Shown here in pieces: positions 6,154-54,810 of a stretch of 64,000 bases of DNA. A program made the position numbers and the translations under genes. The stretch is taken from the NCBI RefSeq assembly GCF_963677845.1, contig NZ_OY782498.1, forward strand, positions 1,002,001 to 1,066,000, written 5' to 3'. Position 1 is the stretch's first letter. Each line of letters starts with the position of its first letter. The notes under the pieces are model-generated. The model saw only the letters and a program-made list of their open reading frames with translations. It did no database searches and was not told the origin of the DNA. This DNA is from an uncultured Pseudodesulfovibrio sp. (lineage in GTDB: Bacteria > Desulfobacterota > Desulfovibrionia > Desulfovibrionales > Desulfovibrionaceae).

Positions 6154-6945
6154 ATGAAAATTGCTGTTCCAAGTACGCTTCCCAATCTGGATGGTCATAT
6201 TGAATGCAAGTTGGGCACTGCTGCCTACCTGTTGGTGGTAGATACCGATGATATGTCTTTCGAAGTGATGGAAGGTCCTCCTCGTTCTTCCGGGGCAGGG
6301 GCAGGGCTCATGGTTTTGACGCAAGTGGTCAACATGGGGGTGCAGGTTGTCCTTGTGGAATATATTGCTCCAAATATTATCGGAGTTTTAAAGAAACAAG
6401 GTATTGAAGTCGTTTCTTCGGTCTCTGGACCTGTTGGTGAGGCAATTACAAACTATATGCAATCTCGATCATCCGTGGGTGAGAAAAAAAGAACAAAGGA
6501 TGGTGATGACGCAGTCCCCAGACAGGCCGTATGGAGTGAAGCGTTGCGAAAGGGAGGACAACAGTTTTCCACGCTTTTGCCCCGTCTTGTGGGAGTGATT
6601 TTGCTTCTGGGGTTATTTCGTGGATTCGTTTCGGAGCAAACACTGCTTTCCCTGTTTTCAAACTCACCCTTGTATGACGCTGTGTGTGGGGCTTCCATTG
6701 GAAGTTTGTTAGCGGGGAATCCCGTGAATAGTTATATTATCGGGAAAAGCCTGCTGAGTGCCGGTGTGGGCGTCGCCGGTGCAGCTGCTTTGATGTTCGC
6801 TTGGGTCAATGTCGGAATTATTCAACTCCCGGCAGAAGTGGCGGCTCTTGGTATGCGTTTTGCCTTGGTACGTAATATTGCCGGTTTTATTCTGGCTATT
6901 CTCATGGCGTTACTTTTCCTTTTGTTGGCAGGGGGCGCAGTATGA
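6154..6945 (+). CDS. NifX/NifB C-terminal-like domain fused to an N-terminal half permease
   Basis: A protein of 263 residues with two parts. Residues 1-105 are a dinitrogenase iron-molybdenum cofactor biosynthesis (NifX/NafY/NifB-C) domain: MKIAVPSTLPNLDGHIECKL, then VLVEYIAPNIIGVLKKQGIEV. Residues about 140-263 are membrane helices (VGVILLLGLFRGFVSEQTLL and SLLAGNPVNSYIIGKSLLSA) resembling one half of DUF318/ArsP-type permeases. A GGAG-containing ribosome site precedes the ATG. Its stop overlaps the start of a second membrane gene (ATGA), so the two halves probably form one transporter. The NifX-like domain may bind a metal cluster or anion on the cytoplasmic side; the substrate is unknown. 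Confidence 0.75.
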   Translation: MKIAVPSTLPNLDGHIECKLGTAAYLLVVDTDDMSFEVMEGPPRSSGAGAGLMVLTQVVNMGVQVVLVEYIAPNIIGVLKKQGIEVVSSVSGPVGEAITNYMQSRSSVGEKKRTKDGDDAVPRQAVWSEALRKGGQQFSTLLPRLVGVILLLGLFRGFVSEQTLLSLFSNSPLYDAVCGASIGSLLAGNPVNSYIIGKSLLSAGVGVAGAAALMFAWVNVGIIQLPAEVAALGMRFALVRNIAGFILAILMALLFLLLAGGAV

Positions 6946-7481
6946 GCCAGAAGCACGTTTCTTCTTCAATGTCCGTAATGAGACCGTGGTTATTTCCTCT
7001 GGGAGTCAGCTTGCTCTATGGCCTCGGTTTTCTTTTAGAGCCAGAAAACACGGAGCGTTCATTGCATATCTGTGTGGACATGTTTCAACAGTTGGCGTTG
7101 CCTATGCTTTTTGCCGTTGTCATGATGGTGGCCTTTAATCGGTTCCTGTCCCCAACTGTGGTTGTTCGTTTTTTGGGGCGGAGCGCTGGAGCCAAGGGGA
7201 TCGTGCTGTCTTCTTTGGCTGGAATCCTATCAATGGGACCAGTCTATGCGTGGTATCCGCTTTTTAAAACGTTGCGGGATAAAGGTGCATCGGTTTTCCA
7301 CGTTGCCAATTTTGTTGGTTGCCGTTCCATCAAACCGGCATTGCTTCCCATTGTGGTAAGTTCTTTTGGCTGGCGATTTACCATACTTTTTCTTCTCATG
7401 AGTCTGGTCATAGCTTTAGGTGTAGCTTGCATCGTGAGTCTGGTTTGCACTGACCATGAGAAAAAGGACTCTGTGAGATGA
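6942..7481 (+). CDS. permease, second half (DUF318/ArsP-like)
   Basis: A 179-residue, almost wholly hydrophobic protein with about five membrane segments. SSLAGILSMGPVYAWYPLFK and VGCRSIKPALLPIVV resemble the second repeat of DUF318-type permeases. The four-base overlap with the previous gene and the complementary halves suggest that the two polypeptides assemble into one carrier. The transported solute cannot be read from sequence. Confidence 0.65.
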   Translation: MSQKHVSSSMSVMRPWLFPLGVSLLYGLGFLLEPENTERSLHICVDMFQQLALPMLFAVVMMVAFNRFLSPTVVVRFLGRSAGAKGIVLSSLAGILSMGPVYAWYPLFKTLRDKGASVFHVANFVGCRSIKPALLPIVVSSFGWRFTILFLLMSLVIALGVACIVSLVCTDHEKKDSVR

Positions 7482-47253: not shown

Positions 47254-48627
47254 ATGTTACTTAGACACACACCAGAAGAAGTTGCTGACCGTAAGGCCCT
47301 GATGATTAATCCGGCCAAGACGTGTCAGCCCATCGGCGCCATGTATGCGGCCCTTGGCATCAAGGGATGCCTTCCACACAGCCACGGGTCCCAGGGGTGT
47401 TGCGCCTACCATCGCTCCACTCTGACCCGGCACTACAAGGAGCCCATTTCCGCTGCAACCAGTTCCTTCACTGAAGGTGCATCCGTGTTCGGCGGTCAGG
47501 CCAACCTCGTGCAGGCCCTTAACAATATCTTCACGGTTTACGATCCGGATGTTGTTGCCGTGCATACCACCTGTTTGTCCGAGACTATCGGTGATGATTT
47601 GAATCAGATTCGAGACAAGGCGATCAAGGATGGCAAGGTTCCAGAAGGCAAGACCATTATTGGCGCACCGACTCCGAGCTACGTTGGCTCGCACGTTACT
47701 GGTTTCTCCAACATGGTGAAAGCCATGGCGCAGTTGGCCGAACCGTCCGGTACCAAGTCCGGCAAGGTCAACGTTATCCCCGGCTGGGTCGAACCCGCCG
47801 ACATGGCCGAGATCAGACGTCTGGCTGAGCTGGTCGGTGTGGAGATCACTCTGTTCCCGGATACCTCAGGCGTGCTGGATGCGCCTTTGACCGGCGAATA
47901 CTCCATGTTTCCCGATGGTGGTGTGACTATTCCCGAGCTTAAGGCGGCTGGTGATGCCATCGGAACCCTCGCTCTTGGCGAATGGTGTTCCGCTGACGCT
48001 GCCCGTTGGCTGGACGCCAAGAGCAAGGTGCCGTGCACCGTGCTGGACATGCCGTTCGGCCTGGCTGCCACTGACCGCTTTATCGATGTGTTGCGTACCG
48101 TCGCCGGTGTCTCTGTTCCCGACTCCGTGGCTGTCGAGCGCGGACAGCTCGTGGACCTGATTTCGGATATGCACCAGTACTTCTACGGCAAGCGTGTGGC
48201 CATTTGGGGTGACCCTGATCAGCTTATTTCCATGACTGAATTCTTGGTGTCACTCGATATGCAGCCTGTCTATGTCGTCACAGGTACTCCGGGCAAGAAA
48301 TTCGAGAAGCGTATTCAGGAAATATGCGAAGGGCAGCCCTTCGAGGTCAAGGTCAAGGCAAAGGGCGACATGTTCCTGCTTCATCAGTGGATCAAGAATG
48401 AATCAGTCGATCTGCTCATCGGCAATACATACGGCAAGTACATCGCTCGTGATGAAGACATCCCATTCATGCGGTGGGGCTTCCCCATCCTTGATCGTCA
48501 GGGACATCAGTACTTCCCGACAGTCGGTTACAAGGGCGGACTCCGTCTGCTTGAAAAGATGTTGAACCTTTTTCTTGATCGTAAAGACCGTGACGATCCG
48601 GAACAAACCTTTGAACTCGTCTTGTAG
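47254..48627 (+). CDS. nifK: nitrogenase molybdenum-iron protein beta chain
   Basis: A protein of 457 residues, the short form lacking the N-terminal extension seen in Azotobacter. P-cluster ligands lie in CQPIGAMYAALGIKGC, HGSQGCCAYHRS and TTCLSETIGDD. APTPSYVGSHVTGF matches the conserved Ser region. It pairs with NifD. A hairpin follows 13 bases after its stop. Confidence 0.98.
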   Translation: MLLRHTPEEVADRKALMINPAKTCQPIGAMYAALGIKGCLPHSHGSQGCCAYHRSTLTRHYKEPISAATSSFTEGASVFGGQANLVQALNNIFTVYDPDVVAVHTTCLSETIGDDLNQIRDKAIKDGKVPEGKTIIGAPTPSYVGSHVTGFSNMVKAMAQLAEPSGTKSGKVNVIPGWVEPADMAEIRRLAELVGVEITLFPDTSGVLDAPLTGEYSMFPDGGVTIPELKAAGDAIGTLALGEWCSADAARWLDAKSKVPCTVLDMPFGLAATDRFIDVLRTVAGVSVPDSVAVERGQLVDLISDMHQYFYGKRVAIWGDPDQLISMTEFLVSLDMQPVYVVTGTPGKKFEKRIQEICEGQPFEVKVKAKGDMFLLHQWIKNESVDLLIGNTYGKYIARDEDIPFMRWGFPILDRQGHQYFPTVGYKGGLRLLEKMLNLFLDRKDRDDPEQTFELVL

Positions 48628-48639
48628 TTCGTCATTCCA

Positions 48640-48675
48640 AGCTCCGGACGGAGGTCCTTTCCCTCCGTCCGGGCT
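48640..48675 (+). terminator. hairpin between nifK and the NifB-like gene
   Basis: A stem of CCGGACGGAGG / CCTCCGTCCGG, extended outward by AGC/GCT, with a seven-base loop. The tail is GTTTAC rather than a clean T-run, so it may partly terminate or protect the nifHDK transcript, reducing expression of downstream cofactor genes. Confidence 0.7.
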
Positions 48676-48757: not shown

Positions 48758-49927
48758 ATGGAAACGACTTTATCGTATGCAAATCATCCTTGTTTTGGAT
48801 TCTCCGCCCGGAAAAAAGTCGGTCGGATTCATCTTCCCGTTGCTCCTCGGGCCAATGCTCGTATCAAGTTTGCGAGCATGAAAAAGGCTGCTTCGGCGAT
48901 TATGCCTGCCGACGCGTTGAATATGTTGACCCGGACAATTGAGGCCGGGAATCCGGTTGGAGTCGTTGGGATTACCGGTCCGGGCGATCCTTTGGCCGTG
49001 CCGGAATATACGTTGGAAACATTGCGTCTGGTCCGTGAAAAGTACCCGGATATGCCTTTGTGCATGACCTCGATCGGTATAGGCGGGGCCGAACATGCTG
49101 AGGAATTGGCTGAAATTGGCCTTTTACATGTGACTATACTTGTCGATGCCGTGGACCCGAAAGTGGCGGAACAACTGTATGCATGGGTTCGTCCTTCAAC
49201 ACGAACAATGCCAATTTCTGAGGCCGTGGAAATTCTTTTGAATGAACAGGCCAAGACGATTGTTGCGCTGAAAAATGCAGGCCTCACCGTCAAAATTAAC
49301 ACCACTGTTTTTCCTGGATACAACGCTGGTCACGTGGAGGATGTTGCTGCTGCCGTGGCCTCATTGGACGCGGATATCATGGCCATTGTCCCGTGTGATT
49401 TTGAGGTGGAGTCCGACGATGCCCTGGTCAAGCCGGACATGGCGTTGATGGCGACGGCGTGTGATCGAGCAGCCCGGCATATGAACCTCGTGCCCTTTTG
49501 GAATTATTGCGGTGAGAAGATTGTCGGTCTCAGAGGGCCGGGAGAGATGGGGCAGCCTTCAGAAATTATGCCTATGCCGACTTCGGAGCGGCCCAACGTG
49601 GCTGTTGTCAGTTCCAATGGGATGGAGGTGGATATGCATTTGGGCCATGCCGCTACATTACTTATTTATGGTCCACGCGAGGATGGTCTGGCCTGCCTGT
49701 TGGAAACGCGTCAGGCCCCGGCCCCCGGAACAGGTTCCTCTCGTTGGGTAAAAATGGCGGCATTGCTTGATGATTGCTTTGCGCTGATGACTTCGAATGC
49801 GGGAGAGCGTCCAAGGGAAATTTTAAGTGGCCTCGGCTTACCAGTTCTTATCACTGACGGCGAGGTAGAAGGGACCGTGGATGTCTTGTTTGGTGGTGGT
49901 AAGAAAAAAGGCAAGTGTCTTAAATAG
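48758..49927 (+). CDS. NifB-like protein without radical-SAM cysteines, with NifX-like C-terminal domain
   Basis: A protein of 389 residues, collinear with the true NifB encoded at 53539. It keeps HPCFG, GRIHLPVAP, GVVGITGPGDP, AVDPKVAEQLYAWV and LTVKINTTVFPGYNAGHV. Where NifB has the CNIQCNYC cluster motif this protein has ANARIKFA, so the S-adenosylmethionine cluster cannot form. The later HCKRC pair is also lost (FWNYCGEK). The C-terminus (about 285-375, VAVVSSNGMEVDMHLGHAAT) is a NifX/NafY-like domain. It cannot be a radical-SAM enzyme; a scaffold, chaperone or escort of cofactor precursor is more likely. Confidence 0.85.
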   Translation: METTLSYANHPCFGFSARKKVGRIHLPVAPRANARIKFASMKKAASAIMPADALNMLTRTIEAGNPVGVVGITGPGDPLAVPEYTLETLRLVREKYPDMPLCMTSIGIGGAEHAEELAEIGLLHVTILVDAVDPKVAEQLYAWVRPSTRTMPISEAVEILLNEQAKTIVALKNAGLTVKINTTVFPGYNAGHVEDVAAAVASLDADIMAIVPCDFEVESDDALVKPDMALMATACDRAARHMNLVPFWNYCGEKIVGLRGPGEMGQPSEIMPMPTSERPNVAVVSSNGMEVDMHLGHAATLLIYGPREDGLACLLETRQAPAPGTGSSRWVKMAALLDDCFALMTSNAGERPREILSGLGLPVLITDGEVEGTVDVLFGGGKKKGKCLK

Positions 49928-49953: not shown

Positions 49954-50256
49954 ATGGCTGTACCCGAGAGAATGATAATTTGTTGTCAGAGTTTCCGTGC
50001 TGCAGGTGATCCCAAAGGCATTTGCCACAAGCAGACCGACGGGTTCCTTCAGTACATAGAGGAAGAGATTCTGGATCGAGGTCTTGATGCGTTGGTTGTT
50101 GCTTCTTCCTGTCTTAAGCAATGTGAATCCGGCCCAATCATGGTCGTTCAGCCTGAGAACTGGTGGTTCAAGGGTGTTGATTCCGAAGAGGCCATTGATG
50201 AAATCCTTGATGCCCTCGAAGACGGGGAAGCCTGTGCTGAATACTTGGCTGCTTAA
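49954..50256 (+). CDS. thioredoxin-like 2Fe-2S ferredoxin
   Basis: A protein of 100 residues, with AGGAGAGAG upstream. The cluster Cys pattern is C-x12-C then C-x3-C: CCQSFRAAGDPKGIC and SSCLKQCESGP, followed by the conserved VVQPENWWFKGV. This is the thioredoxin-fold (2Fe-2S) ferredoxin family found in several nif clusters (Aquifex Fd4, Clostridium 2FeFd). It may interact with nitrogenase or supply electrons for cofactor assembly. Confidence 0.9.
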   Translation: MAVPERMIICCQSFRAAGDPKGICHKQTDGFLQYIEEEILDRGLDALVVASSCLKQCESGPIMVVQPENWWFKGVDSEEAIDEILDALEDGEACAEYLAA

Positions 50257-50269
50257 CGAGGACAGACCA

Positions 50270-50725
50270 ATGCCCGAAGTCGTAATCGTTCGTCCTGCAT
50301 GCACAGAAGATCTTGATGGTTTGGTTTGTCTGCTCGAAATGTTGTTTTCCATTGAGGAAGATTTTGTCATCGATTCTGACAAACACCGGCGCGGTTTGGA
50401 TGTGATGTTGAACAACCGTCGGGGTTGCATCATGGCAGCAGAGGCGGCCAACGGGATTGTTGTTGGCATGTGTTCTGGACAGTTAACGGTTTCCACGGCT
50501 GAAGGCGGTCCTGCTGTGCTGATTGAGGATGTCATAGTCCACAAGGAGTGGCGTGGTCGGGGCATCGGCGCTTTATTGTTGGATTCCATTATGGCCTGGG
50601 GGTGGGAAAATGAAGCCTCTCGGCTTCAACTTCTGGCTGACAGAAAGAATGTCCCGGCCTTGGCTTTTTACAAACACCTTGGTTGGGAAACCACACAACT
50701 CACTTGTTTGAGAAAACAGCTGTAA
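50270..50725 (+). CDS. GNAT family N-acetyltransferase in the nif cluster
   Basis: A protein of 151 residues from ATG 50270, 13 bases after the ferredoxin stop. The acetyl-CoA loop is VHKEWRGRGIGALLLDSI, and LADRKNVPALAFYKHLGWE gives the C-terminal GNAT motif. It lies between the ferredoxin and nifE, clearly within the operon. The substrate is unknown; a nitrogenase-assembly protein or small molecule is possible. Confidence 0.88.
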   Translation: MPEVVIVRPACTEDLDGLVCLLEMLFSIEEDFVIDSDKHRRGLDVMLNNRRGCIMAAEAANGIVVGMCSGQLTVSTAEGGPAVLIEDVIVHKEWRGRGIGALLLDSIMAWGWENEASRLQLLADRKNVPALAFYKHLGWETTQLTCLRKQL

Positions 50726-53506: not shown

Positions 53507-53538
53507 AAATTCACTCCATTATGAAAAGGAGCATCGAT

Positions 53539-54810
53539 ATGAGCGTCAAGGACATCTCCAAGCACCCCTGTTTCAACAAGGAGACTGCCGGAAGTTGCGG
53601 TCGTGTACATTTGCCTGTGGCTCCCAAGTGCAATATTCAATGTAACTATTGCAATCGTAAATATGATTGTGTGAATGAGTCCCGTCCTGGTGTGACCAGT
53701 GGAGTCCTCAAACCGTATCAGGCCGCTGAGTATATGGAGAAGGTGCTTGAAAAGGAACCGCGCATTACCGTGGCTGGTATAGCCGGTCCCGGCGACCCGT
53801 TTGCCAATCCGATAGAAACCATAGAGACCATGCGTCTGTTGAATGAAAAATATCCGCACCTGCTGTTTTGTCTATCGAGCAACGGTATGGGCATACTGCC
53901 GTATCTGGATGATATTGCCGAATTGGGGGTGTCTCATGTCACCATCACCATTTCTGCCGTTGATCCGAAAATCGGCGCAAAGATTTATGCATGGGTCAAG
54001 GACGGCAACGTTGTCTACCACGGGGAGAAGGGGGCGGAAATTCTTCTTCATCGTCAGATTGCAGCGATTAAGGGGCTCAAGGAGCGTGGCATTGTGGTCA
54101 AGGTCAACTCCATCATTATTCCCGGTGTCAATGATGAGCATGTTGTTGAAGTTGCCAAGGTTGTCTCAGCGTTGGGTGCTGACATCCAGAATATGATTCC
54201 CATTAAGCCTACGGCAGACACGCCATTTGCCGGAGTAATTGAACCGGGACGTGAGACCGTTGGCCCTTTGCGCAAGGACGCAGGCGAGTTCATTGAACAG
54301 ATGACACATTGTAAACGTTGTCGTGCCGATGCTGTTGGATTGCTCGGTGATGACAAATCCGCTTCATTGTGCGGGACGCTCAAGGCGTGCTCCAAGCTCA
54401 AACCGCTTGAAGTCAAAATGGCGCGTCCATACGTGGCGGTTGCTACTCGTGAGGGGATGCTTGTTAATCAGCATCTCGGCGAAGCAAAAGCCTTTCAGAT
54501 TTGGGCAGAGTCCGACGCAGGTGGTTTTCGCATGGTCGAAGAACGTCAGGCTCCCAACGTCGGATGTGGTCCCCAACGGTGGGCAGATTTGGCCGAATTG
54601 CTCCGTGATTGTCGGGCTGTCTTGGCGGTTGCCATCGGTGAGACTTCACAAATGCTTTTGGAAGAGCATGGTATCAAAACGCATGTGGTAGATGGTTTTA
54701 TAGAGGACGCATTGCGATTTGTTTTTGAAGGTGGGGATCTCAATGCCCTGAAGGTTCGGCGAAGTGGCATAGGCAGCGCATGTGCCGGTGGAGGCGTTGG
54801 GTGCGGATAA
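53539..54810 (+). CDS. nifB: FeMo-cofactor biosynthesis radical SAM protein NifB
   Basis: A protein of 423 residues from ATG 53539, selected by AAAAGGAG seven bases upstream (ATG 53521 is in frame but lacks a site). The radical-SAM motif CNIQCNYC is intact, preceded by HPCFN and followed by YDCVNESRPG. AGIAGPGDPFANP binds SAM. HCKRCRADAVGLLG carries additional cluster Cys. The C-terminal NifX-like domain (about 305-405, VAVATREGMLVNQHLGEAKA) is fused, as in many proteobacteria. It makes NifB-co (8Fe-9S-C). Confidence 0.97.
   Translation: MSVKDISKHPCFNKETAGSCGRVHLPVAPKCNIQCNYCNRKYDCVNESRPGVTSGVLKPYQAAEYMEKVLEKEPRITVAGIAGPGDPFANPIETIETMRLLNEKYPHLLFCLSSNGMGILPYLDDIAELGVSHVTITISAVDPKIGAKIYAWVKDGNVVYHGEKGAEILLHRQIAAIKGLKERGIVVKVNSIIIPGVNDEHVVEVAKVVSALGADIQNMIPIKPTADTPFAGVIEPGRETVGPLRKDAGEFIEQMTHCKRCRADAVGLLGDDKSASLCGTLKACSKLKPLEVKMARPYVAVATREGMLVNQHLGEAKAFQIWAESDAGGFRMVEERQAPNVGCGPQRWADLAELLRDCRAVLAVAIGETSQMLLEEHGIKTHVVDGFIEDALRFVFEGGDLNALKVRRSGIGSACAGGGVGCG

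Follow-up and report, generated by a model that had tools for sequence, protein, structure and literature searches.

The window, by which we mean the whole stretch of DNA that was analysed, is 64,000 nucleotides long and comes from an uncultured Pseudodesulfovibrio sp.; all coordinates below are positions within it. It carries a nif cluster that reads, in order, nifV (reverse strand), nifH, two PII genes, nifD, nifK, a NifB paralogue without the CX3CX2C motif that we call pseudoB, a ferredoxin gene, a GNAT acetyltransferase gene, nifE, nifN, nifB and nifA (reverse strand). These names were read from the open reading frames, with family-library scans covering NifB, pseudoB, the ferredoxin and the GNAT protein only. 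pseudoB itself occupies 48758-49927 on the forward strand as an intact frame of 389 codons (389 amino acids) with zero internal stops. A first-pass annotation of this DNA had described a full-length frame free of decay between nifK and the nif ferredoxin, and both parts of that description hold: nifK lies upstream (47254-48627, forward) and the 2Fe-2S ferredoxin downstream (49954-50256, forward), the latter assigned from synteny and from an NCBIfam fdxn_Clost match below cut-off. The true NifB (53521-54810, forward, 429 amino acids) is encoded 4.8 kb from pseudoB, contains both CNIQCNYC and a CxxC pair and scores 386.4 bits against TIGR01290, above the cut-off. The GNAT gene (about 50270-50725) fills the gap between the ferredoxin and nifE, and most of the listed nif clusters from Desulfobacterota have a GNAT gene in this place.

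The pseudoB protein consists of two domains, and all of its features are on the forward strand. An N-terminal dead radical-SAM barrel (48758-49513, residues 1-252) is joined by a predicted flexible linker (49514-49564, residues 253-269, pLDDT below 50) to a NifX-like (Nitro_FeMo-Co, PF02579) C-terminal domain (49589-49900, residues 278-381) that was recognised by profile and Foldseek matches. Beyond this domain is a lysine-rich tail (49901-49924, residues 382-389) that is predicted to be disordered; lysine-rich C-terminal ends are common across the pseudoB alignments. The AlphaFold2 model has a mean pLDDT of 87.7, with the barrel and the NifX domain confidently predicted, the 17-residue linker disordered and the barrel adopting a NifB-type fold. 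A scan for promoter and terminator consensus sequences around pseudoB gave no score above those of shuffled sequences.

A NifB paralogue without radical-SAM cysteines

BLASTP aligns pseudoB with the window NifB over 393 columns at 33% identity and 226 bits. The HPCF, HLPVAP, GPGDP, AVDPK and YAW blocks and the NifX domain are collinear, which bears out the relationship that the first-pass annotation had proposed from these blocks. The likeness is not a matter of chance because pseudoB is also matched by Pfam Radical_SAM (41.7 bits), by Nitro_FeMo-Co PF02579 (30 bits against a cut-off of 26.3) and by TIGR01290 nifB (162.6 bits, under the cut-off of 343.65). The Radical_SAM match starts at profile position 34, past the cysteine motif, and in the BLASTP alignment ANARIKFA (48851-48874, residues 32-39) stands in the place of CNIQCNYC, just as had been claimed.

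In NifB the CX3CX2C motif holds the SAM cluster, the K cluster is bound by C18, H31, C115, C260 and C263 (MthNifB), and SAM is gated by a loop with C62 and E65 (MtNifB) (PMC9692996). We read the corresponding pseudoB positions from alignment to 7bi7 and to 43 NifB sequences. Four of the five K-cluster ligands are kept: C12 in HPCF (48791-48793), H25 (48830-48832) and C102 (49061-49063) align with C18, H31 and C115, and C251 (49508-49510) aligns with the K2 ligand C263, while W248 sits at the site of its partner C260. The K1-cluster equivalents C12, H25 and C102 had escaped the first-pass annotation. Its further statement that the later C-x2-C is gone is right for the pair, but only the first cysteine has been lost, as C251 is present in 28 of 28 sequences from the genus. 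C12 and H25 are equally constant in the genus (28/28 each) and C102 is nearly so (27/28), whereas none of the 28 sequences has any of the three CX3CX2C cysteines and all 28 have gaps at both switch-loop sites. Thus pseudoB resembles the two-domain bacterial NifB (TIGR01290) in collinearity and in combining a radical-SAM barrel with a C-terminal NifX domain, but differs in that it lacks the CX3CX2C motif and the C/E switch loop, is one K2 cysteine short and falls under the NifB cut-off.

Judged from the alignment, the retention of K ligands in the genus looks selective, with four of five kept as opposed to none of the five radical-SAM and switch positions (Fisher P 0.048). The statistical case is weak, however, as retention in the genus reaches 90% or more for 39 of the 87 barrel columns that are invariant in NifB, a background against which four of five K ligands has P 0.12. 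Among 61 pseudoB sequences from a scan of genome contigs (the best 80 of 554 relatives), the four K ligands are found in 19, 12, 8 and 6, respectively, and in the 55 of these outside the Desulfovibrionaceae they are found in 19, 6, 3 and 0, where the count for the first ligand is sensitive to how a loose N-terminus is aligned. A lone cysteine at the third position of the SAM motif is present in 11 of the 61. A K-cluster scaffold as a family-wide function is ruled out by the loss of ligands in most scan sequences; holding a cluster at the K site is therefore not what the family has in common.

A quick maximum-likelihood tree of the barrel (unrooted, SH-aLRT support only) separates 41 pseudoB from 49 NifB-like sequences by a branch with a support of 100. 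A Halodesulfovibrio copy (L073) branches beside this split, keeps the same four K ligands as the genus and retains one SAM-motif cysteine together with residues at the switch-loop site. Because of this remaining cysteine, these loop residues and its position in the tree, L073 has the appearance of an intermediate in a stepwise loss.

Constraint on the NifX domain

Foldseek matches the C-terminal domain of pseudoB to NifX (9ian_F); the fold-comparison matches listed do not include the NafY core 1p90. Profile comparison matches the domain to 1p90 (E 0.001) and, weakly, to NifX 9ian (E 0.06). A PF02579-type domain is matched at E 0.01 in all 56 members of set A3, and a cable-bacterium copy without any K ligand is predicted to have a NifB fold (TM 0.94 on 7jma) plus the NifX domain. 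Residue H294 (49637-49639) aligns with H121, the histidine of the NafY His-Phe-Gly motif, and by aligned range only with H35 of NifX. This histidine is present in 89 of 89 pseudoB sequences (28/28 from the genus and 61/61 from the scan, where four scan entries, L059, L060, L062 and L063, are by their length contigs already in the genus set). Searches up to E 1 gave no pseudoB match to DIMCO_N, the N-terminal docking domain of NafY, in Pfam, where only Radical_SAM and Nitro_FeMo-Co were listed, to TIGR02663 (NifX) in NCBIfam or to the AnfO profile PF09582.

The genome that contains the window has eight PF02579 matches, two of which are NifB and pseudoB. Five others gave either sub-cut-off matches (MrpORP, nifB, PRK04217) or none in the NCBIfam scan, with no NifX among them; the eighth lies under the Pfam cut-off and outside that scan. 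PF16844, the NafY N-domain family, has no match in this genome or in the control genomes. Elsewhere in the window, the gene at 6154-6945 fuses a Nitro_FeMo-Co (NifX-like) domain to an ArsP_1-type permease stretch, and an overlapping gene at 6942-7481 holds a second ArsP_1-like stretch; both ArsP_1 matches are just under the Pfam cut-off.

Selection was assessed by Nei-Gojobori dN/dS in 11 pairs that we chose from 23 loci, the pairs sharing loci and thus not being independent. Omega is 0.08-0.42 for pseudoB (11 pairs) and 0.04-0.21 for nifB (10 computable pairs, dS being saturated between the window and L031), and together with conservation beyond this genome the pseudoB values indicate purifying selection, the outcome that the first-pass annotation had set against decay. 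Within pseudoB the C-terminal domain has a lower omega than the barrel in 10 of 11 pairs (the exception is L152-L151), whereas in the true NifB the barrel has the lower omega in 7 of the 10 computable pairs. Additionally, barrel dN is 1.4 to 9.7 times higher in pseudoB than in NifB over the 11 pairs. With retention counted from 90% upwards, the C-terminal domain keeps 18 of its 28 NifB-invariant columns in the genus and 19 of 28 outside the Desulfovibrionaceae; for the barrel, 18 of 87 are kept outside that family (55 sequences), compared with the 39 of the genus (28 sequences). By these sequence measures conservation of pseudoB is concentrated in the NifX domain, and constraint on the barrel is weaker. 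Consequently, the earlier view that pseudoB kept the rest of the NifB fold stands as far as both domains are predicted to be folded, but has to be qualified for a barrel that is under less constraint and whose K ligands are lost in most of the scan sequences from outside the Desulfovibrionales.

A tree of the C-terminal domain (111 columns) sets the NifB domains apart, with a support of 96, from pseudoB and four stand-alone NifX-like proteins; pseudoB forms a group of its own with a support of 71. This tree is unrooted and has many open forks and long branches that meet. The four stand-alone relatives come from four genomes of another family, where they occupy the same slot between nifK and the ferredoxin.

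Distribution and gene order

Of the 35 further genomes of the genus that we examined, 27 have a full-length pseudoB (52-77% identity). In one more (G008) it is split over two contig fragments, two (G009 and G032) have NifB and no pseudoB, and five have no NifB-like match at 1e-10. In the contig scan, 61 loci among the best 80 of 554 relatives have a copy without Cx3Cx2C and the other 19 matched through a true NifB only. The conserved pseudo-enzyme proposed in the first-pass annotation is supported, and in addition its NifX histidine is kept. The record titles of the 61 loci name Pseudodesulfovibrio or Desulfovibrio (5), Halodesulfovibrio (1) and Desulfarculaceae (1), with the remainder mostly Desulfobulbaceae or Desulfocapsaceae, Candidatus Electrothrix (cable bacteria) and vaguely labelled metagenome-assembled genomes. 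By title, the 19 loci matched through true NifB only are from Chlorobi, Planctomycetes, Bacillota, Spirochaetes and one Deltaproteobacteria.

An even sample of 395 genomes from the phylum contains pseudoB in 17, of which 16 were recognised by score (at least 333.8 bits, the next match being NifB-like at 326.9) and one (G356) as two stretches. Score alone fails to separate the two proteins near 333 bits because true NifB of other phyla reaches 337; the one match near this line (G424) is pseudoB by its fetched sequence, and scores for the remaining 15 are 387 or higher. The 17 carriers comprise the genome of the window, 11 with fetched sequence and five identified by score alone (G112, G231, G255, G341, G380). 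All 11 fetched copies lack the motif and all 11 lie between nifK and the ferredoxin, although at least three of these loci (L163, L165, L167) are by their length contigs of the scan set. Outside this range, 24 genomes of other families gave no pseudoB-level match, and 299 genomes from the phylum of the Bacillota-labelled locus gave two matches at 1e-80 (337 and 307 bits) that are at NifB level. Three Nitratidesulfovibrio vulgaris plasmids each have one matching place with an identity (33.5-35.4%) at the level of NifB, as judged by identity and not by cysteines. Ten fetched nif clusters from three other families are likewise without pseudoB. Since nif clusters without pseudoB exist, in G009 and G032 as well as in these ten, the gene is dispensable in principle.

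The order nifK-pseudoB-ferredoxin is common to all 28 genus loci, as established by script for 26 and by tblastn positions for two (L023, L024), the script exceptions having arisen from the ordering of overlapping stop-to-stop frames. It recurs at 55 of the 61 scan loci (from the best 80 of 554 relatives). Among the six that depart from the pattern, L064 and L108 end after pseudoB, L088 begins inside it and in L136 the GNAT gene precedes the ferredoxin. The last two, L102 and L111, have the ferredoxin and GNAT genes downstream, yet nifH, nifD and nifK are absent from the available DNA of either locus, and the tie between pseudoB and nifK is therefore not strict.

The spacer after nifK contains a strong GC-rich hairpin (48644-48672) without a clear T-run, which recurs in the genus (L002-L028). 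In an alignment of 24 of the 28 spacers, 12 of 14 consensus pairs have changed on both sides; L021, L023, L024 and L028 were left out, and in L023, L024 and L028 this hairpin is absent. Since some clusters that lack pseudoB (L038, L039, L044-L046) likewise have a hairpin after nifK, the structure seems to belong to nifK, perhaps as an mRNA stabiliser that sets nifHDK above the downstream genes.

Several other NifB-like or NifX-like genes were seen among the loci. In the cluster of a Desulfobulbales-type contig (L167 and L071, the same contig by length), nifB is accompanied by a small NifX-like gene of its own, which shows that pseudoB does not preclude a NifX-like protein. Extra NifB-like radical-SAM proteins are encoded outside the nif cluster in G013 and G024 (L051 6983-7939 and L052 6311-7189); they have no NifX-domain match and lie on a long tree branch. 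In G135, G168, G249, G394 and others of another genus of the same family, NifB matches fall in open frames of about 930 amino acids that are possibly NifN-NifB fusions.

Candidate roles in cofactor assembly

pseudoB probably carries or guards a metal cofactor rather than making one, and we infer as the most economical reading that it holds or delivers NifB-co or FeMo-co. By analogy with NafY and AnfO, a dead NifB paralogue may have become a two-domain cofactor chaperone in which the NifX domain holds the cofactor and the barrel docks, a reading to which we give about an even chance. The C-terminal domain would bind NifB-co or FeMo-co through H294, and the barrel, no longer catalytic, would dock on a partner in nitrogenase assembly, most likely apo-NifDK. 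The linker would then tether the cofactor-binding domain at this partner until the cofactor is handed over. In the Desulfovibrionales the retained K ligands may provide the barrel with a second site for holding a cluster. In Azotobacter and Klebsiella nifY is located near nifK; because of this position, and because nifK adjoins pseudoB, we favour NifDK as the docking partner, with NifEN as the alternative. NifX passes NifB-co from H35 to NifEN (PMC13128457), and a NifX-like delivery to NifEN would fit H294 equally well.

Of the known systems, NafY shares with pseudoB a two-domain build and a C-terminal NifX-type core with a cofactor histidine; its N-domain binds apo-NifDK and its core FeMo-co (PMC8496260). 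The N-domain of NafY is, however, a sterile alpha motif, according to the title of a reference cited in PMC13128457, whereas pseudoB has a dead NifB barrel whose partner binding is putative. MoFe protein with P-clusters and without FeMo-co copurifies with NafY and NifY; the latter is an assembly factor of the NifX family and binds the MoFe protein when FeMo-co is missing from it (PMC6016461). NifY differs in that the cofactor histidine kept in pseudoB is absent from it (PMC13128457, in the part that treats these proteins). AnfO also has two domains with a flexible linker between them and uses one to dock on immature nitrogenase and the other to capture the cofactor, but docking falls to its NifX-like domain, which lies at the N-terminus (PMC11938142), and pseudoB has no match to the AnfO profile. 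NifX has the same domain fold and NifB-co histidine as the C-terminal part of pseudoB, but is a small stand-alone protein.

Other roles can be weighed against the same evidence. The barrel may hold a K-type cluster or NifB-co at the K ligands and hand it first to the NifX domain of the same protein, then to NifEN; pseudoB would in that case be a carrier of the NifX kind with a barrel added for holding clusters. This fits the contrast between kept K ligands and lost catalytic positions, the same four ligands in Halodesulfovibrio and the clustering of pseudoB with nifE, nifN and nifB, but a retention that is unremarkable beside that of other barrel columns, and its loss in most scan sequences, leave such a relay unlikely. 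A historical version is that radical chemistry was lost stepwise, first the SAM-cluster cysteines and then the K site, and that the protein was recruited into nitrogenase assembly as a second, non-catalytic NifB. The Desulfovibrionales barrel would still hold an Fe-S cluster or NifB-co at the former K site, relay it to the adjoining NifX domain and buffer cofactor between NifB, NifEN and NifDK; we consider this unlikely.

pseudo-enzymes often act as partners or regulators of their active paralogue, and NifB and pseudoB have their fold and gene cluster in common. A dead copy could thus tune NifB activity or stability, either as a binding partner of NifB or by competing for the proteins that NifB binds, but conservation sits in the NifX domain and not in the barrel, and the invariant histidine and the nifK neighbourhood would be left unexplained. 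We regard this role as distinctly unlikely, and for the regulation of NifB that had been suggested in the first-pass annotation no evidence was found. The position beside nifK and the AnfO-like arrangement of two domains and a flexible linker (PMC11938142) would also suit a protein that, like AnfO, blocks wrong or premature cofactor insertion on immature nitrogenase, or that keeps apo-NifDK open in the manner proposed for NifY, without delivering any cofactor. The kept histidine speaks instead for cofactor binding, as NifY and NafX are without it in the account given in PMC13128457, which makes such a guard or placeholder improbable. A decaying nifB duplicate could account for the fast barrel, but all 28 genus sequences are full-length and stop-free, omega is well below 1, and the gene is conserved across orders with mostly fixed synteny. 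Decay is highly improbable, and we reject it on the strength of the open frames, the conservation and omega.

The gene itself is probably already in print as nifB. A Pseudodesulfovibrio nif cluster has been listed with nifB_1 and nifB_2, and orthologous clusters were reported in the type strains of the genus except two (PMC11505543); the gene content suggests that one of the two is pseudoB. The part of that paper dealing with the cluster says nothing of missing cysteines, and the corresponding part of PMC7922080 names nifBENSU only. Arragain et al. removed 28% of their putative NifB sequences, in most cases because CX3CX2C was missing, and took the sequences without the motif for NifX (PMC5715403). 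pseudoB may therefore have been mislabelled as NifB or discarded in surveys. A search of the open-licence literature, with most subscription papers outside its scope, found no description of pseudoB as a cysteine-less pseudo-enzyme, and as far as this literature goes pseudoB is a conserved and unstudied nif component.

FeMo-co assembly is known mostly from Azotobacter and Klebsiella, while the carriers of pseudoB are a large group of anaerobic nif bacteria that includes sulfate reducers and cable bacteria. If pseudoB is a cofactor chaperone, then a dead radical-SAM enzyme would have been reused as a docking platform. For counts of nif genes in this group, the presence of two nifB genes does not amount to two NifB enzymes.
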